Source: Limnanthes douglasii subsp. nivea
Taxonomy: Eukaryota; Streptophyta; Magnoliopsida; Brassicales; Limnanthaceae
Assembly: GCA_036936605.1 (NCBI GenBank)
Contig: JAUPFV010000005.1
Coordinates: 77,884,885 to 77,948,884 of the forward strand
Length of the DNA: 64,000 nucleotides
Direction: 5' to 3'
The translations under genes were made by a program, and so were the position numbers. The notes below the pieces were generated by a model. The model was given only the letters and a program-made list of their open reading frames with translations. It had not been told where the DNA came from and did not search any database. Positions 2,278 to 64,000 of the stretch are shown piece by piece. Position 1 is the stretch's first letter. Each line of letters starts with the position of its first letter.

Positions 2278-3398
2278 TTGGTTGATGCCATTGTTAAAGA
2301 AGTCGACAGGCTTACTAAAATGGGGCATATAAAGGAGTCTCAATATCCTTTATGGACAGCCAATCCGGTCTTGGTGAAAAATAAAAATGGCAAGTGGCGT
2401 ATGTGTATTGATTTTACAAATCTCAACAGGTCCTGCCCAAAGGATTTATACCCTGTCCCCCGGATTGATCAGTTGGTGGATTGTACATCCGGGAATAAGC
2501 TACTATCTTTCATAGATGTCTTCTCCGGGTATAACCAGATTCAAGTAGATTTGAACGATAAGGAGCATACTACGTTTGTCACTGATATGGGCCTTCATTG
2601 TTACAAGGTGATGCCTTTTGGGTTAAAAAATGATGGGGCTACCTATCAGAGGGTTGGTAAACAAAGCCTTTGCTGATCAAATTGGAAGAAATATGGAAGT
2701 GTATATTTACGACATGATGGTAAAAAGTGTGGACGAAGAGCTACACTTGGCAGATCTACAAGAAACTTTTGCTAACTTTGTAAAAGTAAATTTGAAACTA
2801 AATCCAGAGAAGTGTGTGTTCGGAGTGCAGTCCGGAAAATTCCTAGGATATATAATAAGTGAGCAAGGGATACAGCCCGATCCGGACCAGCTTAATGCTT
2901 TATTTCAAATTGAGCCTCCTCGGAATATTAAAGAAGTACAACGGTTGATTGGGAGGTTGGCTGCATTAAATCGGTTCATCTCAAGGTCTTTGGACAGATG
3001 TGCCCCGTTTTTTCAAACTTTAAAAGGTGCAAAGCGATTTGACTGGACTTCACAATGTGATGAGGCCTTCAATGAGATAAAAAAAACATATGTCCTCCCC
3101 CAAGACATTATTTAAACGTGTTGATGGAGAGACACTCTTCGTTTATTTGGCAGTTTCCAGTTGTGCCATCAGTGCTGTATTGGTAAGGGAGGTGGATAAT
3201 TACCCCCGTCCAGTGTATTACATCAGCAAGAGCTTAATAGATGCAGAAAAACGCTATCTAAAGCTTGAAAAGTTAGCACTAGCCCTGGTAATTGATGCTA
3301 GGAAGACGAGGCCTTATTTTCAGGCTCATCCTATTATTGTCCAGACGTCCTATCCCCTGAAAAACATTTACAAAAGGCGGATGTTTCGATTAAAATGA
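2278..3398 (+). pseudogene. reverse transcriptase and first RNase H of Tat element 1, active site mutated
   Basis: RT motifs run in order: NPVLVKNKNGKWRMCIDF (about 2365-2420), FIDVFSGYNQIQVD (2510-2550), MPFGLKNDGATYQR (2610-2650), then the active-site block at 2700-2720, and the connection with FLGYIISEQGI and IGRLAALNRFIS. A gypsy RNase H follows at 3120-3330 (YYISKSLIDAEKRYLKLEKLALALV). Frameshifts lie near 2640-2675 and 3090-3115. The active site reads YIYDM where the family has YIDDM, so one metal-binding Asp is lost and this RT would be inactive. The second Tat element in the window keeps YIDDM. Confidence 0.92.
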
Positions 3399-5246
3399 CT
3401 AAGTGGTCAGTGGAACTGGGGGATTTCGATATTGATTTTGCTCCTCGAATAGCAATCAAATCCCAAACCGTGGCTGATTTCTTAGTTGAATTCCACTCGG
3501 ATAGGGATACAAAGCAAACAACTGAGATGAAAGACAAAAAGGTCTGGGTCGTCCGGACGGATGGTGGATGTGGTGCAGGGGTATGCTTGACCTCTCCGTA
3601 TGGTGACAAAATGTACCAAGCTATATGTTTTGCTTTTAGGGCTTCTAACAATGAGTCCGAATATGAAGCTGCTATAGCTGGTTTAAAGTTAGCTCATATT
3701 TGTGGGGCCAAAAGGGTCAAGTTGATGAGTGATTCCCAGCATCTTATTCACCATGCGCAAGGTCAATCTGAAGCCAAAAATGAGCAGCTAATAAAATACT
3801 TACTTCTTCTCAAAGATGTGGCACTTAGGTTCAAGAGTGTTGTCTATGAGCACATACCCCGAACAGAAAATGAGCTAGCAGACTCCTTGGCAACCATAAC
3901 CTATATTGAATTATACCCTTGGATCCATGTGTTGGAGTGCCCTTCCATTCAACTCAATATGGGTAAGGAGGAAGAAAGCTTCGATATACAGATGGAACAG
4001 CCCCAAGATTGGAGGTTTCCTCTCCTTCAATATCTCTCCGATGCCATCTTTCCTCCGGATAAATCAATAGCAAGAAAAGTGAAGTACAAAGCTCGTGGTT
4101 TTATCATACTAAGAGATGTTCTTTATAAAAAGTCTTACAGTAAACCCCTCTTACGATGTTTGGGGGTTGATGAATCTCAAATAGTCCTCTCTGAATTACA
4201 TGATGGTGAGGGGTCAGCTCACTGTGGGTTCAGGGCTCTAACACGGCGAGTTTTGTTGGCTGGTTATTATTGGCCCACTATAATGCAAGATGCTAAGGAG
4301 CTGGTGAGAAGGTGTGACCCATGCCAGAGATATAGCAGCGAAATTCATGTTCCAGCCACCCCGTTAGAATCAATTTCTGAGCCTATACCCTTTGCTCGAT
4401 GGGGGCTGGATTTGGTGGCACCTCTACCTATGGCATCCGGAGGGCGCAGAACAATAATTGTGGCTATTGACTATTTTTCGAAGTGGATCGAAGAAGCCCC
4501 ACTGGCAGGTACAACATCAAAAGCTGTCATAAAATTCATTTTATCCAATATCTGTTGCAGATTTGGCATTCCACAGAAGATAACAACAGACAATGGGCCA
4601 CAGTTCGATAACAAGGAAATGGAGAGTTTCTGTGCCTCTAGAGGTATACAACATTGTTTCTCTTCACCTTTCCACCCACAAGCAAATGGTCAGGTTGAAG
4701 TGGCTAACAGAACTATACTGTCCGTTTTGAAGAGAAATTTAGAAGGGGCTGCTGGAAAATGGCCTAGCTATTTACAAGAGGTTTTGTGGGCCTACCGGAC
4801 TACACCTGGGGCTGCAACACAAGAGTCACCTTTTGCCTTGGTCTATGGGATGGATGCCATAGCTCCCATAGAAGCAACTCTCCCTTCATTTTGAGTTCAC
4901 AATTTCTCCAAACATGCTAACGAAGTGGCAATCAGAGGCCAGCTTGACTTAATAGAAGAAAGAAGAGTTAAGGCTCGCCTTAGAGCTGCGCACTATCAGG
5001 GTTTGATGAGAAGCAGGTTTGCTTCCAAAGTTAAAAGAAGAGATTTTCAGCCGGGGGACAAGGTGTTAAGGAAAGTCTTCTTATACACTGAAAGAGAAGC
5101 TGCTCGGCGAACTAGCCCCAACTTGGGAAGGACCCTATATGGTCATTGAAAAGCTTAAACCTGGGACATACTGGCTAGAAGACAAGGATGGAAGGGTTTT
5201 AAATCACCCTTGGAATATTGATCACCTCCGGATGTACTTGGAGTAG
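3395..5246 (+). CDS. second RNase H plus integrase of Tat element 1
   Basis: The 499-residue open stretch 3395-4894 starts at the end of the first RNase H region. It then holds an archaeal-like second RNase H (TDGG, NNESEYEA, MSDSQ, NELADSLA as the acidic residues), a hallmark of Tat elements. Integrase follows: a zinc-binding H-H-C-C region (LHDG, AHCG, RRCDPC) at about 4200-4330, and the catalytic core with VAIDYFSKW, TDNGPQF and GQVEVANR giving the D, D, E triad. The protein continues past a stop at 4894 through 4925-5149 and, in another frame, to a stop at 5244-5246 (GPYMVIEKL, HLRMYLE), the usual integrase C-terminus. The glycine-rich loop after TDGG is a few residues shorter than usual. 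Confidence 0.93.
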
Positions 5247-18307: not shown

Positions 18308-19513
18308 ATGTGGGCTGCAAATCCGGTTTTGGTTAAAAATAATAACGGTAAATGGCGAACGTGTGTAGACTTCACAGGTTTAAATAGAGCTTGCCCAAAC
18401 GATCATTTTCCAACCCCATGGATTGATCAACTGGTAGATTCAACATCCGGATACCGATTGCTTTCTTCCATGGACACTTATGCAGGGTATAATCAAATGA
18501 AGATGGATCAGAGAGATGAGGAAAATACGTCGTTCATTACTGTAAGGGGTTTATATTGTTATAAAGTAGTATCGTCTGGGTTAAAAAATGCAGGGGCAAC
18601 TTATCAACGTCTAGTGAATAAGACTTTAGAGTCCCAAATCGGGAGAAATGTGGAAGTATATATTGATGATATGCTGGCTGAAATTTCGAAGGATGAGAAT
18701 CATTTCGATGACTTAGAGTAAACCTTTATCAACTTGAAAATGGTGAATTTAAAATTAAATCTAGAGAAGTGCACGTTCGGGGTTCAACCTGGAAAGTTCC
18801 TTGAACATATAGTTAATGAAAAAGGGATTGAAGCTGACCCAGTACAGTTAAAAGCTCTTACATCTATGACTCATCTTCGGAATATTAAGGAATTTCAAAT
18901 ATTCATGGGAAGATTGGCAACTCTAAAAAGATTTATATCGCCCGCGTCGGATAAATACACTCATTTTTTCCAAGTATTAAGACATTAAAATTGTTTCAAT
19001 TGGACAAATTAATATTCGGAGGCTTTTGCATCAGATATATAGTATTTTTCTTCCCCATAAATTCTTACTAAACGTTTTTCAAGAGAGAGACTATTTGTTT
19101 ACATATCCGTCTCAGATTATGTTGTAAGTGTCGTACTAGTTCGAGAAGAAGATAATGTTCCAAAGCTAGTGTATTACATTAGTAAAAGCTTGTTAGATGC
19201 CAAAAAATGGTATCTGAAGATGGAAAAGTTGGGTCTTGCGTCGGTAATTGTTGCTCCAAAAATGCGGCCATACTTTCAAGCTTATTCTATTACACTACGA
19301 ACATCTTTTCCAATGAAAACTATGCATCAAAGACCTGATATTTCAGGGAGAATGACTAAATGGTCGGTTGATTTAGGGGATTTTGATATCGAGTTTGAAT
19401 CAAGAAATGCAATTAAAGCTCAAACCCTTGCAGATTTTTTAGCGGATTTTTATTCTGAGCGTTCGGATATGGATGTTCATAAGGATAATTTTGAGGCTGA
19501 GTGGATAATTTGA
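18308..19513 (+). pseudogene. reverse transcriptase and first RNase H of Tat element 2
   Basis: RT motifs: NPVLVKNNNGKWRTCVDF, SSMDTYAGYNQMKMD, SGLKNAGATYQRLVN, and the active site VYIDDM at 18655-18675, here intact. A TAA at 18719-18721 and later indels break the frame. RNase H lies at about 19080-19300 (YYISKSLLDAKKWYLKMEKLGLASV) and the linker to the second RNase H at 19300-19513. Confidence 0.88.
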
Positions 19514-55462: not shown

Positions 55463-55839
55463 CTACTATGCTTTAAAAACTGAACAAAAAACTCTTACCT
55501 TATTTTATTACTATATAAAATTTGAAACAACAACTCATAAAAAATATATCTTTAAATTGTTATTGTATCCACCTCTATTTTTATGTTTATAAAATCCTGT
55601 AACTAAAGTTTCTAAAAGACATGTTTACTCAACCGATACTTAAAATACTATTGTTGTATGATATCATTCTATTACTACACATGATGCAAACTAAACTGAA
55701 TTATATTTAGTTACAAACCACAACCCAACATATTAAACATTCTAATTAAAAAATAGTTATTATATAAAACATTCACTTTTTAATATAACAATTAGTATAC
55801 GACCATCTCACTTAAACCTGCTTTTATTTTTATTTTTTT

Positions 55840-56131
55840 AAAGGAAATTGTACTTAAACCCATTCAACTATTCAATTATCACTTACCACCCAAGGTTTGA
55901 TCAATTGTTACTTAATACCCATCTCAACTACCTTACTGTCACTTACAACCTAATTTTATTTTAATACCCTAACTACCCTTAACCCACTATATAAACCTTA
56001 TTTTCTGTTTTCTTTCTATTTTTTCTAGCTTTTTGAAGATTTGAATTTGTTAGCCGCTCTAACCACCTAACCCTACCAACCACCACGAGCTGGGTTGAAA
56101 TCACATTTTCCGGTGATCGGAAGCTGCTAAA
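55840..56131 (+). promoter_or_regulatory. left part of the right-hand MULE: presumed end, promoter and first untranslated exon
   Basis: From 55851 (GGAAATTGTACTTAAACCC) an imperfect direct repeat of about 57 bp (CTTAAACCCATTCAACT... then CTTAATACCCATCTCAACT...) leads to a TATA box ACTATATAAACC near 55988. The sequence resembles the ends of plant MULEs (GTAAATTRCACTTTAACCC-type), but the partner end is outside the window, so the boundary is inferred. The first exon would run from about 56020 to 56131. Confidence 0.5.
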
Positions 56132-56795
56132 GGTTTGTTTCTTTATGTAAGTTGTTGTGTTAAACCTGTCTAACCTCTGTTTTATACGTACATGAGTTGA
56201 TCGTTTCTTTTTGGAATCTTATAGCTTACAAGTAATCGTGTTGCGAGCTTTTTAGGTAATTACCTACCGATTTCGAAGTTTATTATTTGTTTTCTCTGTT
56301 GGAATAGGTTCTATTCTACTGTTTTTAGATGTCATTGCCTGATTTCGAGCTTTTCTCTGTTTTTTTTTGTTATAGTGATCTGTTATTGTTTAGTTAATAT
56401 TGTTCGTTATATAGTTCGTTATATAATTTGGTAGTGCTTTAGTTTTGTATTGAATGTGTAGATTATGAGTTTTTAGGTCAGTTAGAGTATTGTATTTTGA
56501 AACAAATATCAGGACCGGTGTTACATAGAAATATCAGGACAGGATGCGAATAGCTCTATGTAGATATACACAATTTGCAAGATAGGATGCGAACTGGTGC
56601 AGTAAATAATCTGCATAGTTTTTGTGACTAATAACAAATATCAGGACTTTGTTACCTACAAATATCAGGACAAGATGCGAATAGACCGTTGTAGGTATAC
56701 ACAATTCGCACCTTAGGATGCGAATTGTTTGATGCAGTAGTAAATATTTTGCACCTAGTTATTGTGACTAATAACAAATAACTTGTATTGTCCAG
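56132..56795 (+). other. 5' UTR intron of the MULE transposase gene with TGCGAA motifs
   Basis: The donor is CTAAAG|GTTTGTTTC and the acceptor TTGTCCAG|GTTAAGAG, 8 bp before the ATG. The right third holds five TGCGAA/TTCGCA sites, each near ATATCAGG. One pair forms the palindrome ACAATTCGCA-N8-TGCGAATTGT at 56702-56729. Confidence 0.6.
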
Positions 56796-56803
56796 GTTAA
56801 GAG

Positions 56804-59228
56804 ATGTCTAAATCACGAGTTTGTATTTTTAAATATGGTCACCAAACTGCAATTGTGCCTTTCACGGAGTTTGAAAGCTTCGAAAGTATCCAAGCTTATG
56901 TAGAGAACACATGGGAGGAGCTTGCCACAGGTGAGTACCTAATTACTTACTCCTGTGGGGATTACAATAATTGTTTCTTTAATAACCAGAATGATTTTGT
57001 TAGGTTGGTGTTATATCTTGATTTGGAGCGTTTAAAACGGGTTAGTTTTCTCATAGAACAACACGTCTTTGATAAGGGTTCTGGTAATAAAAGTTCTCTT
57101 GATAAGAGCTCTGGTGGTAAGGATTCTGGTGGTAAGCATAAAGAGCGTAGCTTGATTTTGGGAGAACCATCTCTTGATCAACTAGTTAGCGGGGAGAGTA
57201 GTAACGGTTTAGTTAATTCTGATCAGAGGAAAAAACAACTTGCTACTGCTGGTTGGGCTGATGCTATTACAGGAGTGGGTCAAGCTTTTGAAGAAGGTGC
57301 TGCCGGTCTGAGGGTATCCTTGTGCAAGTTTGCGTTAGAGCATGGTTTTTCTTTCAAATACCTGCACAACACAACAAATAAGATCACTGCTTATTGTGAA
57401 AATAAGCTCACAAGCGGGTGCAAATGGAGGGTTTATGCATCTATTGACTCAAGCACCGGCCTTATGACGATCAAGAAGCATTTCCCGTACCATACTTGCA
57501 GTCCTGTTTTCTCCCAGAAGCATAAGCATAAGCGGCACAGGCATTTGACATCAGATTTGATTGCAGAGGAAATTCAGGATTCTCTCCGGACCTGCCATTC
57601 GTTGACAGCCAAAACCATACAATCGACAGTCAAACAAGATTACGGTCTTCAGACTGCCAGTTGGAGTTGTCAGCTGGAAACCGATTCAAGCGCTGTTTTG
57701 TAACATTCGGTTCGTCCCTTAGTGGTTTTCATTCATGCCGTCCAATGTTGTTTGTCGATGGAACCCATTTATATGCAAAGTACAAGGGTACATTACTCAC
57801 TGCTGTAGCAAAGGACGGAAACAACGGTTAGTTACATTTATCTAGTTAATGAACGATGTTTTTTTGTGAAAATGCTGATGGTGTTCGCAGCAGATGATGC
57901 GAATTAAGCAGTGTTGTGATCCTCACATTTCGCATTTGAGGCTGCGAATTATGCATATTGCTGAGTAAACTGTACATACATCGCAGCTTGAGTTAGGTAT
58001 TATTTAAAGTTTCCACAAGCTGCGAATTCACATGCCAAGCTGCGAACTGTTTGCATGAGCAATTAAGATGTCACACATATTTCGCATGACAAGCTGCGAA
58101 TTGTTCCAGGACAGCATGCGAATTGTTACTCGTTCTTAAACGTTTGCATACTGTTGTAGTGTTTATTTGATCTGCCTTTTTCCAGGACTATTCCCTGTTG
58201 CTGTTGGTGTAGTTAGCATTGAAGATTGGGACAATTGGATGTGGTTTTTGGGGTGTTTGAAACCACATTTGCTGGATCGCCAGATCACATTTATTTCAGA
58301 CCGTCATTCTGGTATTGTTAATGCTGTTTCTGTCTTGTATCCAAACTGCTATCATGCGTACTGTTATTTCCATCTCATGCAGAATTTGAGAGCCAAACTG
58401 GAACATACTAGCAGGGAGTATAAAAAAAAGATGTTGAGTTTCTTCCACCGTCTTGCTTATGCTCCCAGTCAAGAGCTTTTTAAAGATATACTAACAGCTT
58501 TTCTATGTGAAGGTGGTGAGAGAATGAGTGATTTTCTTGCAAATTTACCCCCTGAAAAGTATGCGCAGGCTTACGTAAAAGGGAAGCAATACGGCTCTAT
58601 GGCTTCTACCGCAGCTGAATCGTTCAACAATCAGATTAAAAAATATTGCGGCTTACCAATTGTTGAGTTTATTGATTGGATTAGAGTCTTGCTTATGACT
58701 CAGGTTTCCCGGAGATACGAAGAAGGTCTCAGCTGGAGTACTAATTTGGTTCCCGAGTACGAGAAGAAGCTAAAGCAGAATGTTGACATGTGCCGAAGTT
58801 GGGTAGTACGTAAGTCCTCTTCCGCCATGTTCGAAGTCTTTTCGACTCCTGTGGCTGTTGTTAATCTGTTGGATTTCAAATGTTCATGCGGATCATGGCA
58901 ACAAGAGTGTTTTCCATGTGCTCATGCTCTAGCGGTATTACAATACACCGACCAAGATCCATTGACTGTAATAGAACCCTTCTTTACGGTTAAGAATTAC
59001 AGGGAAACTTACTCTTTCAGCATACCAGCTATAACTGATTTCGGCGAAGGGTCCAGCGCTAACGATCCTTCTTTTGTTGAAGTTCTGCCTCCGAACGTTA
59101 AGAGACGCTCCGGAAGGCCTAAGAAAAAGCGAATCCCTTCTAGAGGAGAAATCTTAACCAAGAAGTTAAGGTGTGGCCGATGTTCGAAATCAGGCCATAA
59201 CCGGAGGACTTGTGATGTTCCAGTTTAA
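56804..59228 (+). pseudogene. mudrA-like transposase of the right-hand MULE
   Basis: Exons 56804-57826 and 58186-59228 are separated by a 359-bp GT-AG intron in the codon of GNNG|LFPV. The protein starts with a PB1-like domain (RVCIFKYGHQTAIVPF), then a Ser/Gly/Lys linker and the MULE DNA-binding domain (FALEHGFSFKYLHN, CENKLTSGCKWRVYAS). The DDE core follows: LFVDGTHLYAKYKG, ITFISDRHSGIVNAV, CYFHL, AESFNNQI. After it come a SWIM zinc finger (CSCGSWQQECFPCAHAL) and a CCHC knuckle (CGRCSKSGHNRRTC). Between QDYGLQ (57650) and RFKRCFVTFG (57682) about 60 residues normally present are missing and the frame shifts, with a stop at 57701-57703. The copy is therefore defective, but both zinc fingers and the catalytic blocks are intact. 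Confidence 0.93.
57827..58185 (+). other. transposase intron 2 with dense TGCGAA motifs
   Basis: Donor AACG|GTTAGTTAC, acceptor TTTTTCCAG|GACTA. Within 359 bp there are nine exact TGCGAA or TTCGCA sites (57884-58122), in both orientations. Confidence 0.85.
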
Positions 59229-60003
59229 GGACATTTATTTTTGTAGCATAGTTATTGTTCTGTACAGAAAACTAAACATTTGTACATTCCTGTGTTTTTG
59301 TATCTGCCACTATTGGAGTTGCAAGCATTTCGCATCCTGTGCTGCGAATCATTTACAATATGTTGGTGTATTGTTACAAACATCTATCAGGATTACATGC
59401 GAATTATGTGCAATTATGTGAAATGCTTACAGGCTGCGAATTATGATAAGAAAATTATGTTCTAGTCAACAGGATGCGAATTATGTGAAATTATGTGCAA
59501 TTGTGTGAAATTTCGCAGCATACCAGATCTCATTTCGCAGCATGCATACTTAACATCTATCAGAATTACATGCGAATTATGTGCAATTATGTGAAATGCT
59601 TACAGGCTGCGAATTATGATAAGGGAATTATGTTCTAGTCAACAGGATGCGAATTATGTGAAATTATGTGCAATTGTGTGAAATTTCAACAGGATTACAT
59701 GCGAATTATGTGCAATTAGAAGTCCTGATATTTGTCTTATGATAAGCTGCGAATTGTCATTTATAAAAATACCAGGATATTCAGTAAGTTTGAAAATAAG
59801 TAATATAGCAGGATAACATGCGAATGAAGTGCAAAATGTATTTGGATGCGAATCAGTTATATCATTGAAATTCTGTAAACAAGTTGTATTACAAAAAGGA
59901 GGATTACAATATGTCCAGAAACTAACAACTGTTTACACATATCAGTACAAGCTACTATTGCTAGTTAGCTGCATTCCAAAAAAACAAAAAACAAAAACCA
60001 ACT
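59229..60003. repeat. intergenic TGCGAA motif array with a 172-bp tandem duplication
   Basis: Fourteen exact core sites lie in 59329-59852. A block starting ATCTATCAGRATTACATGCG at 59382 is repeated from 59554 (period 172 bp) with few changes, followed by a partial third copy near 59687. The stretch separates the stop codon of the transposase from the stop codon of the small minus-strand ORF. Confidence 0.88.
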
Positions 60004-60504
60004 CTAGTAGTTGGTAGAGGATTCATCACCAACTGTTTCCTCTTTCTCCTTTTTGTGCTGATCATCTTTGTCTTTCTCCTCTTTGTCTTCGACTTTCTCT
60101 TTCTCTTCCACTTTATCTTCAGCTTCAACATCAACGTCCATCATGCTTAAAAATTTTGTCCTTGATGGACCAGCTTCGTCTTCCCTCTTCCTTTTGTTGT
60201 TTCGAACCTCTGCCGTTTGAGGTTCCACCTTTTCTGGCTGAGGTGCAGCAGGAAGCATTGGAACCTGTTCTGGCTAAGGTTCAGCAGCAACCTGTGGAAC
60301 AACCTCCACTGGTTGAGAGTCAGCAGAGTAGTAGTCATCATATATGTCTAGTTCTAAGACAGAGACTGGGCTTGGGGGTGGTACTGCTGGCATGATCAAC
60401 TCATCACTCCAGTTAACGGTTAAGGATGACCAGGAGTCACCCAGAGAACCGAGTGAACCAGAGTTTGAGTATGAGGTGGTTGTTGTGGTGGTGGAAAAAG
60501 ACAT
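60004..60504 (-). pseudogene. small acidic ORF of unknown function in the MULE, one in-frame stop
   Basis: An ATG at 60504 opens a 166-codon frame without introns, broken only by TAG at 60274-60276 (codon 77). Composition: Ser/Thr-rich start (SFSTTTTTTS), Pro/Val/Glu-rich middle, a nuclear-localisation-like NNKRKRED near residue 107, and a charged Glu/Lys/Asp C-terminus. I do not recognise a family. It has its own TATA box 80-90 bp upstream and lies between the transposase and the protease genes, so it is probably an element gene and not chance. The stop could come from one CAG-to-TAG change. Confidence 0.6.
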
Positions 60505-60583
60505 GACTGTTTGAATTCGAAGAGAAGAAGAGGTGTTTTTAAAAAAATATAGAGTTTGGTGTAAAATTAGCCTTTGGTTACTA

Positions 60584-60596
60584 GAGGTTTTTATAG
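60584..60596 (-). promoter_or_regulatory. TATA box of the small MULE ORF
   Basis: CCCTATAAAAACC on the minus strand, about 80 bp upstream of the ATG at 60504. Confidence 0.6.
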
Positions 60597-61095
60597 GGAA
60601 ATGAGGTAATCATTACATAGCCTCCATGTCCAATCAGCATTTAATGAATTATATACTTGATTAGATTGTTTTTTTGTGCTCAATGTAGAAAACGTTTACC
60701 AAGGCATAAGCCACAGCCTATTCGTATCCTTCCACTTTGTATTTTTAATTTTTTATTCCTGCACCAGGCTGCGAACTGGGTTTAAGCTGGGATACCAGGA
60801 TGCGAACTGTGTGTGAAGTGATTACCATCTATCAGGTTAGGCTGCGAAATATTTGATGATAAGTTAGGATGCAAACTGTTCATAAGGATTTAGGCTGCGA
60901 ACTGTTCTTACATACCTGAGTAAACTACCAGGATCATAATCAACCATTATATATCAGGTTATGATGCGAACTATAAGATAAGGAGTATTCAGAGATGTGA
61001 AAATGTAATTTGTTTATGTATGCACAACAAAACTAAAAATTACAACAGACATATGTATTTACAAGCAACAGATGTATTTACAAGCAATACACGAA
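60597..61095. repeat. spacer between the small ORF and Ulp1-B with TGCGAA motifs
   Basis: Five exact core sites (60769-60970) plus degenerate ones such as GGATGCAAACTG at 60868, mostly as RGGMTGCGAACTG, with neighbouring ATATCAGG or TACCAGGA. The 3' UTR of Ulp1-B should also lie here. Confidence 0.8.
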
Positions 61096-61344
61096 TCAGT
61101 CATATGTGATGGTGTCTATGTCATTTAAAAAGTAATAGAACATTTCTTCTCTGAAGACAGTCACCATATCTGCATCGTATTTTTTCTGGACTGATCCATG
61201 CTCAATAATATCCCTTGCATATTTGCAGACGAAGACACCACAGTCCACACTGCCTCGCTTTTGTTGTGGGAAGCCTCTTTCCACTTTCACCTTCCACCCT
61301 GTAGTATATTTGGGTAGGAATCCTTTATCCAACAAATATTTGAT

Positions 61345-61675
61345 CTGTGTATAATAATTAGTGTTAGGAATATGCACAAAAACAAAAATAGTTGGTGACA
61401 TACAATTCGCATCCTCAGGCTGCGAATTATATTACAATAAATCATACACGATTCGCATCTTAGGTTGCGAATTGTATGACAGCCTTGATAGGCTGCGAAT
61501 TGAGTTGTGGACAGGCTGCGAATTGTATCCAACATAGATAGGCTGCGAATTGAGTTATGGACAGGCTGCGAAAAAACATCTTGTTTACTCACAATTCGCA
61601 GCATACCAGATCTCATTTCGCAGCATTCATACTTAAAATGTGTTCAGATTTAAGTGTATAGTTTGGAATATTTAC
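61345..61675 (-). other. Ulp1-B last intron with ten TGCGAA sites
   Basis: Ten exact sites between 61406 and 61622, including the palindromic pairs at 61403-61431 and 61449-61476 and four direct copies of AGGCTGCGAA spaced 22-28 bp. Confidence 0.85.
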
Positions 61676-62499
61676 CAGTAGTGCAGGTGTTCTTGTGGTG
61701 GTGTCTATGGCATGAAGCTTAGGCAGAAGCGAATTGTAGTTTGAAATTGTCCTTCCGTCGATGTCGATGACGAGCAACGTCCAGTGGTTTACATTGTCCT
61801 TCGACTTGGTGCACACTGGAACCATGATGATGTTGGCTGCTTTGTGCCCCTTCCTAAAAGCCATGTCCACCAAATTTTCCACTTGCCACCCTGCTTTCAT
61901 TTGATGCTGCATCCAAGCAAGAGTATATTAAAGTGAGAACATTTCTGAGAACTTTGTTCAATTCACGTGAGCTAAACTTACCGCAGTCATGCCCGAAATC
62001 AGTATGGTGTCGTGATGCTCTCCTTTAGCTTTAGTGCATGGAACTTTGTAGTCTGCATCTTCAAGCATCTTTCGAATCCAAGCATCGATAAGCTAACAAA
62101 GGAGTTGTAGATTTATGTTAAATATAGAATACATATGTGAAACATTGAATATAAAGTTGGTTGACAATTGGATACCTTTACGTCCAGCTCCATTTCTAAA
62201 GGTAGTGCCATGACATCACTCACTTGCACCTTGATTCCGTACGTAAACTTGGACTCCGGTAACTGCCATACCACTGGATCAGGGGTGTCGCTCTCGTAGG
62301 CTTTAACCAACTGTATTTTGTGGTATTGTGCCACATCGATACGGTCAGTTACTTTTGTTTTCTTTGGTCAGTCGCTGTATTCTACTACTGGCGGTTCCCG
62401 CATTGTAATTACGAACTCTTCTTCTTCCTCTTCCACTTGAGGCGGCGTTTGTGTCAGTAGCGCAAAACTTGGCTCCTCTATCTCCTTACTGGGCTCGAG

Positions 62500-62759
62500 C
62501 TTAGTAAATAACAAAAATCAAGAGTTGAAGGGCGTCAGTGTTTTATAAGTGCAACTAGTCCAAACAGTTCGCAGCTTAGGCTGCGAAATGTAAGGTAGCA
62601 GTTAAATAAATTTATTATTATATATCAGGGGAGGGTGCGAACTGTTCGAGGTTCCACTGAACAGTTCGCATCCTACCCTGATATTCGTTTGTAATACCCC
62701 AATCACCATTAGACACAAATCTTATGTTATGATGCGAAATCATTATAAGTAGGCCTTAC
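62500..62759 (-). other. Ulp1-B intron with five TGCGAA sites
   Basis: Core sites at 62569, 62582, 62636, 62665 and 62733, with TATATCAGG at 62621 and CCTGATAT at 62677. The two smaller introns (61907-61981 and 62093-62175) have none. Confidence 0.85.
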
Positions 62760-63214
62760 CGCTCGGTCAGCGACAACCACTGCCGTTGACTTGTTCGGCA
62801 TAGGATCTGGATCGTGTCGGCAGAAATCATTAAAGTCATCCTCCGACATGTTCTCCAGAGACCGTTGTATTATAGAATCGTAATATACATTATCAGTTTC
62901 ATTTAAAAATGTCTGTGAAACTTGAGTGTAAATACCATCAACAAAAGCATTCGGTAAACCTACTGTGTTATCGTGGGACTCTGGAGCTGGCAGTTGATTT
63001 GTTACCGGGCCTACAGTTTGACGTTGGCTTAGCAATTCTGACTTTGCTGACAGCACCATTGGTCTTTGAGGTTCCACCGAAGAAGTGGTTTTGTCTTCTA
63101 AGGATGGTCCTTCCTGGCTGAGTAGTTCTGTCTTCTCACCGGGATGGACAGGTTCTGACTCTTGAGGTGCTACCTCTTGAGTTAGCCTTTCTCTCTTCGC
63201 CAAGGTTATCTGTT

Positions 63215-63647
63215 GTTGCTGTTGTTGTTCTTGTTGTCCTTGTTGTCGGTCTTCGTGTTGAACCTGTGGCTGCTGGTGTTGCTGGGGGTGTTCTTCGTGT
63301 TGTTGTTGCTGGGGGTGTTCTTCTTGTTGGTGCTGTTGTTGTTGTTGTTGCTGTTCGTGTTGTTGTTGTTGTTGCTGTTGTTGCTGTTGTTGCTGTTGTT
63401 CCTGTTGTTGGGGGTGTTGTTGTTCTTCTTCTTCTTGTTGCTGTTGCTGGGGGTATTCTTCTTCTTGTTGCTGCTGTTGTTGTTGTTGTTGCTGTTGTTG
63501 CTGTTGTTGTGGTTGCTCTTGTTGTTGTTGCTGGGGGTGTTCTTCTTGTTGGTGCTGTTGTTGTTGTTGCTGCTGTTCGTGTTGTTGTTGTTGTTGTTGC
63601 TGTTGGTCTTGCTGTTTCTGCTGGTGTTGTTGTTGTCTTTCGGTCTC
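63215..63647 (-). repeat. CAA/CAG repeat coding for the poly-Gln segment of Ulp1-B
   Basis: On the minus strand CAA and CAG codons alternate for about 430 bp with interspersed GAA, CAC and CCC (EEHP, EEEYP blocks). The mixed codons indicate that Gln content is kept at protein level, or old slippage. Overlapping Thr-, Leu- and Val-rich frames in other phases are shadows. Confidence 0.9.
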
Positions 63648-63938
63648 CTATTTCATACAAAAATAAAAAAAACAAAAGGGTGGAAGGGTTAAGCATAAGT
63701 TAATCATTGTGTAATCATATTTCGCACCCTGACCTGATATCTATGTTATTCATTCCTAACAATTCGCAGCTCAGCATGCGAATTGTGTAATAACCAAACC
63801 ACCAGTTTATTACATAATTCGCAGCTCAACCTGCGAAACGTTTGGAATGAATAACCAACCAGTAATAACCAACCAGTTTATTACATAATTCGCAGCTCAA
63901 CCTGATATTTGTTTGATAACATCATATCATCTACTTAC
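63648..63938 (-). other. Ulp1-B intron with six TGCGAA sites
   Basis: Sites at 63721, 63763, 63777, 63818, 63832 and 63889. The pairs at 63760-63787 and 63815-63840 are palindromes of the ATTCGCA-N-TGCGAAT type. ATAACCAACCAGT repeats at 63850 and 63866. Donor GTAAGTAG at 63938 and acceptor GAAATAG at 63648 frame the intron. Confidence 0.85.
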
Positions 63939-64000
63939 ATTATCTACCTCCTCTGTATGTGTCTCCATGATGGGTGAATTGTGGGCATCATCGTCCCTTT

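Follow-up and report, generated by a model that had tools for sequence, protein, structure and literature searches.

A Palindromic TGCGAA Motif Concentrated in the Non-coding DNA of a Ulp1-Carrying Mutator-like Element Family of Limnanthes douglasii Suggests a Parallel to VANDAL Anti-silencing

Fast diversification of both binding motifs and VANC domains, with helical periodicity, has reportedly been described in eudicots (Sasaki 2022), and that work may hold motifs related to the one reported here. According to the available parts of the papers that describe them, VANC21 and VANC6, proteins encoded by VANDAL transposons of Arabidopsis, bind arrays in non-coding DNA, where they bring about a local loss of CG methylation and a wider loss of non-CG methylation, and they act in trans (PMC5735166, PMC10398659); the arrays of VANC21 have a single orientation (PMC5735166). 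Some VANDALs, the KIU or Kaonashi type, carry a VANC gene with a Ulp1 domain, and KIU-type VANCs recognise the motifs of their own group, as stated in the part of the source at hand (PMC13317346). In Kaonashi elements (KI-MULEs, MULE standing for Mutator-like element), the accessible text places the Ulp1 gene in reverse orientation to mudrA (PMC2528002). In this work, we describe a MULE from Limnanthes douglasii subsp. nivea that carries a Ulp1 gene and a dense short motif, TGCGAA, a combination that resembles the VANDAL/VANC anti-silencing system and suggests that it perhaps serves the escape from silencing. The element was met in a stretch of 64,000 nucleotides, hereafter the window (C441:77884885-77948884), of an assembly of 1.78 Gb, in which the five contigs met most measure 293-405 Mb each. 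It occupies 55842..64000 on the + strand and runs on past the end of the window to about 67069 (L009 position 3953), for a total of 11.2 kb, with a transposase gene, a small open reading frame (ORF) and the Ulp1 gene along its length.

A script counted 62 exact TGCGAA/TTCGCA hexamers in the window, against a mean of 16.5 and a largest value of 27 in 100 dinucleotide shuffles. Fifty-four of them fall at 56545-63894, which agrees with the roughly 54 counted by hand at 56541-63895 in the initial annotation of this DNA, and eight lie in the other 56 kb, fewer than the expectation of about 14 and twice the four or so given there. The 4,442 bp of coding DNA in this part of the element contain none (first-order Markov expectation 1.6), as already noted by eye for the exons of the three genes, and the 3,559 bp of non-coding DNA contain all 54 (expectation 1.7), so that the enrichment is confined to non-coding DNA. 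The hexamers form clusters in the 5' untranslated region (UTR) intron of the transposase gene (56541..56797, 5 TGCGAA), in a further transposase intron (57832..58185, 9), in the spacers between transposase and small ORF (59229..60003, 14) and between small ORF and Ulp1 gene (60505..61095, 5), and in three Ulp1 introns (61345..61675, 10; 62500..62759, 5; 63648..63938, 6); these seven numbers are exactly those of the hand count. The end of the window cuts the element, and the N-terminal part of the Ulp1 gene lies beyond together with 18 further TGCGAA, including clusters at L009 1706-1941 (10 TGCGAA) and L009 3068-3237 (7).

The introns and spacers had been said to share the motif and no other sequence. 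The shared motif was borne out; longer stretches are shared as well, namely a 136-nt copy within non-coding DNA (59379/59552, 98% identity), belonging to a repeat spaced by 173 bp in the first spacer, a repeat of 78 nt inside the transposase 5' UTR intron (83% identity), and 45 nt that one of the spacers has in common with an intron of Ulp1 (59512/61595, 96%). The motif regions of the window element are partly tandem repeats. With a threshold of E 1e-3, blastn detected no further match to the element elsewhere in the window.

The sites have a strict geometry. An extended form of the motif had been placed often 10-25 bp from ATATCAGG; instead, TGCGAA begins exactly 13 bp after TATCAGG, that is, with a 6-bp gap, in 9 of 12 cases in the window. 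An overlooked feature is the palindrome TTCGCA-N8-TGCGAA, which occurs nine times in the window (for example at 62568..62587, and as a full palindrome ACAATTCGCA-N8-TGCGAATTGT at 63759..63786); 2,000 simulations gave a mean of 0.22 and a maximum of 3. Among 745 motifs from 15 copies, the inward N8 spacing was found 126 times and the next commonest 17 times, while TATCAGG-N6-TGCGAA accounted for 69 of 182 TATCAGG, with 9 for the next spacing; the copies are homologous and the events not independent. Whether TTCGCA or (A/C)TATCA, the left half takes up the same six positions, from 14 to 9 bases ahead of the core, and therefore the unit looks like a dimer-type palindrome, ACAATTCGCA-N8-TGCGAATTGT, in which one half is often relaxed. 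Over 787 sites from 16 copies the left half read TTCGCA 264 times, ATATCA 57, TTTGCA 27, CTATCA 26 and TTCACA 16 times; TTTGCA and TTCACA are the products expected from CpG decay of TTCGCA.

Window-copy sites with the same flanks (score of at least 3) read TGCGAA in 49 cases, TGCAAA in two, and TGTGAA and TGCGAT in one each. Around the motifs of this copy, 15 CpGs were present where 71.4 were expected, an observed/expected ratio of 0.21, compared with 0.68 in random window segments, and none of 5,000 random sets was equally low. This strong shortage is weaker across the family: the ratio was 0.47 (263 vs 560.7 expected) in 14 copies, represented by 48 matched introns and spacers, and 0.58 with a cruder coding mask, under which Ulp1 exons stay unmasked. 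The near-duplicate L023 (1.2% non-coding difference from L022) was excluded from the first part of the spacing analysis and from both multi-copy CpG counts, and L017 from the 14-copy count.

The motif marks a large family. The 14-mer AGGMTGCGAAYTGT has 7,794 exact matches in the 1.78 Gb, and its reversed control six. From 100 listed places on contig C1 we picked 17 motif clusters, mostly dense ones; 15 contain genes of the family, and the other two (L026 and L033) are derivatives of it. When the window copy was taken together with 18 further stretches retrieved from the genome, and the count limited to 400 bp around the genes, 52,755 bp of coding DNA held no motif and 94,078 other bp held 774; some of these stretches overlap and are partly counted twice, and the other DNA includes Ulp1 exons outside the query coverage. 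The 3-kb loci L001-L008 entered the motif counts only. Because most copies had been located by the motif itself, four more were chosen by their transposase alone; these close relatives of the window copy contained 47, 40, 54 and 50 motifs, with 1 of 191 in coding sequence. A transposase search returned 19,519 first-look candidates, of which 117 were scored, and all 117 showed 95-100% identity, hence we consider the family large and, as we infer, recently active. Neither an equal motif density in the rest of the window or in exons, nor a loss of the motif from the other copies compared, was found. A similar motif cluster recurs on C1 at 17251619, 17360249, 17462284 and 17554525, at intervals of roughly 92-109 kb, suggesting that the element is part of a large tandem duplication.

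Comparison among copies indicates that the motif is kept while the surrounding sequence diverges, as the initial annotation had proposed to check. Across pairs that are not independent, differences amounted to 0.038 at non-CpG motif bases, 0.139 at other non-coding bases and 0.115 in coding DNA, and motif CpGs differed at 0.104 vs 0.215 for other non-coding CpGs. Inclusion of the four transposase-chosen copies brought the pairs to 190, of which 46 had too few sites and were dropped, leaving 144. The non-CpG motif difference was below the non-coding one in all 144 pairs and below the coding one in 136; the motif CpG difference was below that of other CpGs in 136. Nine disjoint pairs gave the same picture, with the motif below non-coding DNA in nine, below coding DNA in nine, and motif CpGs below other CpGs in eight. 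Of the 445 hexamers for which 600 or more cases were aligned, TGCGAA ranked fifth in conservation (0.698 kept vs a mean of 0.417), with 6,297 aligned cases of its own and 620-984 for the four hexamers above it. Selection is the simplest reading of the low motif divergence.

Both gene-less derivatives, L033 (4125-5205, 1,081 bp) and L026 (4160-4903, 744 bp), consist of the element ends and a motif array. Their left end matches that of the window element at 79% and the right end at 73-76%, L033 is flanked by a 9-bp target duplication without mismatch (AATATATAA), and the interior of each is a tandem motif array alone, with a period of about 50 bp. No tblastn match to the proteins of the family was found in either. 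The site array has thus been retained where neither gene nor intron remains. Most sites in these derivatives read TTCGCA-N8-TGAGAA, and inward N8 pairs number 11 in L033 and 6 in L026.

The same half-site shift was found in gene-bearing relatives. A 16-mer with TGAGAR, TGAGARTTGTTTGCAA, has 6,439 matches in the genome, and its reversed control five. In L017, whose transposase is 74-79% identical, sites such as CAAACAACTCTCA-N8-TGAGAGTTGTTTG occur, and 33 TGAGAR half-sites make three inward N8 pairs, every other spacing being seen at most once; the N-domain (the N-terminal domain of the Ulp1 protein) in the adjoining L034 shares 63% identity with its counterpart in the window copy. L035, the single cluster fetched by the TGAGAR pattern, has the same gene order as the window element, with 32 TGAGAR-TTG half-sites (one coding), six TGCGAA, and nine inward N8 pairs against at most one at any other spacing. 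Identity of L035 to the window copy is 66-74% in the transposase, 37-55% in the C-terminal half of Ulp1 and 52-60% over the matched parts of the N-domain. A half-site that shifts from TGCGAA to TGAGAR under constant geometry would be expected if protein and sites change together; in these two gene-bearing copies (L017/L034 and L035) the joint variation of half-site and N-domain is a correlation only.

From these features we infer, with moderate confidence, that the family itself encodes a DNA-binding protein, sequence-specific and probably dimeric, that recognises the motif; this protein would most likely be the Ulp1 product and have a VANC-like anti-silencing role. The full site would be a palindrome of two TGCGAATTGT half-sites with 8 bp between the hexamer cores, one half being often degenerate, with (A/C)TATCA in place of TTCGCA. 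With dozens of sites spread over the spacers and the larger introns, the protein could coat the non-coding DNA of the element. Acting in trans, it would remove or block silent chromatin on every copy that bears sites, gene-less derivatives and broken copies such as that of the window included, and in related copies the protein and its sites would have changed together, with a shifted half-site and the geometry kept. A more detailed version, which we put forward tentatively and with some doubt, holds that the VANC-like activity relies on a binding domain unrelated to DUF1985, and that a dimer reads two CpG half-sites 8 bp apart, so that binding could sense methylation or protect from it; it would apply to thousands of sites, to subfamilies whose half-sites lie one or two bases apart, and to gene-less derivatives that keep the ends and the array.

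That the Ulp1 protein is the likeliest binder is argued mainly from the position of its gene, on the opposite strand of a MULE, the arrangement given for KIU-type VANCs (PMC13317346), with the N-domain probably doing the binding. That domain (L009 2235-3025, equal to window 65351-66141, - strand) has been under constraint: the divergent copies L012/L013, L014, L020 and L025 give a ratio of nonsynonymous to synonymous substitution rates (dN/dS) of 0.19-0.35 relative to the window copy. Its median dN/dS is below that of the transposase and the lowest of seven segments, but this does not set it apart, because the medians (0.35 and 0.21 from 11 and 12 copies for the N-domain, 0.55 and 0.52 from 19 and 14 copies for the transposase) come from different copy sets and the transposase is equally constrained in the same divergent copies.

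A number of observations weigh against this proposal. In those same divergent copies the C-terminal exon of the transposase has a dN/dS of 0.20-0.52, and for that reason dN/dS does not single out the binder. Among seven members, a single N-domain reached DUF1985 in Pfam (E 0.059), with no match in five others, which is below the cut-off, as is the weak best match to PMD (E 0.053), and no homologue of it was found among 1,646 candidates. The single orientation of VANC21 arrays is absent, since the window sites are 37 + and 17 - and many are paired inversely. No clear 10.5-bp periodicity appeared among same-strand pairs (p 0.14 to 60 bp, 0.09 to 120 bp); a period of 11 bp in such pairs up to 120 bp gave p 0.018, uncorrected. 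TGCGAA is seventh, not first, in conservation among the 220 CpG-containing hexamers, and homogenisation of repeats may add to the low motif divergence. Finally, L017 mixes half-site types, with 15 TGCGAA and 20 AGAGTTG (two of them coding).

Other explanations of the motif have to be considered. In Spm/CACTA elements, the self-encoded TNPA recognises a short motif, also in inverted pairs, in subterminal sites and is linked to demethylation. All three traits, the self-encoded protein, the inverted pairs and the demethylation link, are shared with what we propose here; the superfamily differs, and the sites of the full element are internal rather than subterminal. By analogy, the motif might be bound by the transposase, or help transposition in the way of subterminal sites in some DNA transposons, which we regard as unlikely. 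The transposase does have a DNA-binding domain, and the two gene-less derivatives, which depend on transposase from outside, keep their arrays; that of L033 lies about 350 bp from one end and 160 bp from the other, and in elements this short an array inevitably comes closer to the ends. The leftmost site of the window element is about 700 bp from its left end, all right-hand sites but one are separated from the right end by over 700 bp, and the clusters sit in mid-element introns and spacers. On these positions the subterminal-repeat reading was rejected.

A host transcription factor driving or insulating the element's expression would fit sites that surround its genes on both strands, and host factors often bind palindromes as dimers. 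It would not fit the scarcity of hexamers in the rest of the window or the restriction of the picked C1 clusters to the family and its derivatives, and it does not easily explain a half-site that shifts under constant geometry, so we think it quite improbable. We give very little credence to the small acidic ORF as binder or anti-silencing factor: it is found in most gene-bearing copies (40-96% identity over matched pieces), but its product is of low complexity, acidic and Lys-rich, and Pfam gave nothing for it up to E 1. Equally hard to credit is an origin without any DNA-binding protein, be it drift of tandem repeats or an RNA-level signal for splicing or hairpins. Some arrays are indeed plain tandem repeats and palindromes can form hairpins, but one spacing dominates, the motif bases are better conserved than exons in most pairs, and the sites lie on both strands and are found in spacers, in introns of genes of either orientation, and in gene-less arrays; the RNA-level reading was rejected on the strands, the spacers and these arrays.

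Among known systems, the VANDALs come closest to the element. The likeness, as far as the available parts of the VANDAL papers go, includes a Mutator-like element with a dense short motif mainly in introns, spacers and other non-coding DNA (Hosaka 2017, PMC5735166; Sasaki 2023, PMC10398659), motif regions that are partly tandem-repeated, related families with different motifs, degenerate terminal repeats, an accessory gene that diverges beside the transposase, and a MuDR-type transposase (PF03108, PF10551), the last assigned by Pfam domains and not by comparison with VANA itself. The motif differs, as had been stated, from YAGTATTAY of VANC21 and from AGTTGTCC/AGTTGTAC of VANC6, in the parts of the sources that give them; moreover, a CpG-containing core in an N8 palindrome replaces same-orientation arrays, the N-domain has no significant DUF1985 match, and the present system is known from sequence alone. 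The likeness to VANDALs drawn in the initial annotation thus stands in that the motif is tied to a family, non-coding, conserved, present in gene-less derivatives and shifted in relatives. Its statement that no VANC-like gene was present is unsafe, since some VANCs carry a Ulp1 domain, as the KIU type does in the text at hand (PMC13317346), an opposite-strand Ulp1 gene is found here, and its N-domain lies past the window. With Kaonashi/KIU MULEs the element shares the Ulp1 peptidase gene opposite the transposase and the degenerate ends; the motif and geometry seen here do not appear in the available parts of the KIU descriptions (PMC2528002, PMC13317346). Nor was the motif mentioned in the available text of the literature found under VANDAL, VANC, Ulp1, Kaonashi and anti-silencing (including PMC6446971, PMC2528002 and PMC12844716), where the motif letters themselves were not used as a query.

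The copy in the window is, judging from its reading frames, defective. One transposase exon, with the MuDR DNA-binding domain (56804..57831, + strand; PF03108, E 7.7e-9), is broken in frame near 57660-57700, where L019 and L024 hold about 100 bp more, which points to a deletion with frameshift; another (58186..59228, +) encodes the MULE domain (PF10551, E 1.7e-9) and a SWIM zinc finger (PF04434, E 2.7e-6), and both are free of TGCGAA, as is the small acidic, Lys-rich ORF (60004..60504, -), which has one in-frame stop in this copy and is present as an ORF in others. A homology search turned up no relative of the transposase with more than 48% identity, and a search of viral contigs for it found none. 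The Ulp1 (C48 peptidase) gene (61096..64000, -, with more exons outside the window) has exons predicted from splice sites at 61096-61344, 61676-61906, 61982-62092, 62176-62499, 62760-63647 and from 63939 onward, and matches PF02902 at E 1.9e-6, from the last exon and above the cut-off, and at 8.4e-4, below it. In-frame stops interrupt it at 62368-62370 and again in the N-domain, of which stop-free versions exist in other copies. In the Ulp1 domain (61676-61906, -) the position that we take to be the catalytic Asp reads Asn (ISNYNSL), and the His and Cys of the triad appear to be present; the Ulp1 C-terminus had no homologue among 264 candidates. The middle of the protein is a long Gln-rich repeat with His, Glu and Pro interruptions (63211-63636).

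The element is flanked by a 9-bp target duplication of low complexity, TTTTTTTAA, at 55833-55841 and L009 3954-3962, and its terminal inverted repeats are degenerate, the ends resembling each other only in patches. By eye, a stretch of about 70 bp is found in direct orientation on both sides (window ~55753-55821 and L009 ~3992-4060), as if the insertion sat between two copies of another repeat. Elsewhere in the window, 3395-4894 and 18308-18721 are pieces of long terminal repeat retrotransposons, with reverse transcriptase, RNase H and integrase.

If the proposal is right, motif-guided self-recognition by transposons acts outside Arabidopsis too, and at thousands of sites. The system would offer a clear dimer site, two half-site versions and small natural substrates in the form of gene-less arrays of about 1 kb, and the co-change of protein and target would become directly testable. 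It might also provide a second, differently built tool for sequence-specific demethylation.

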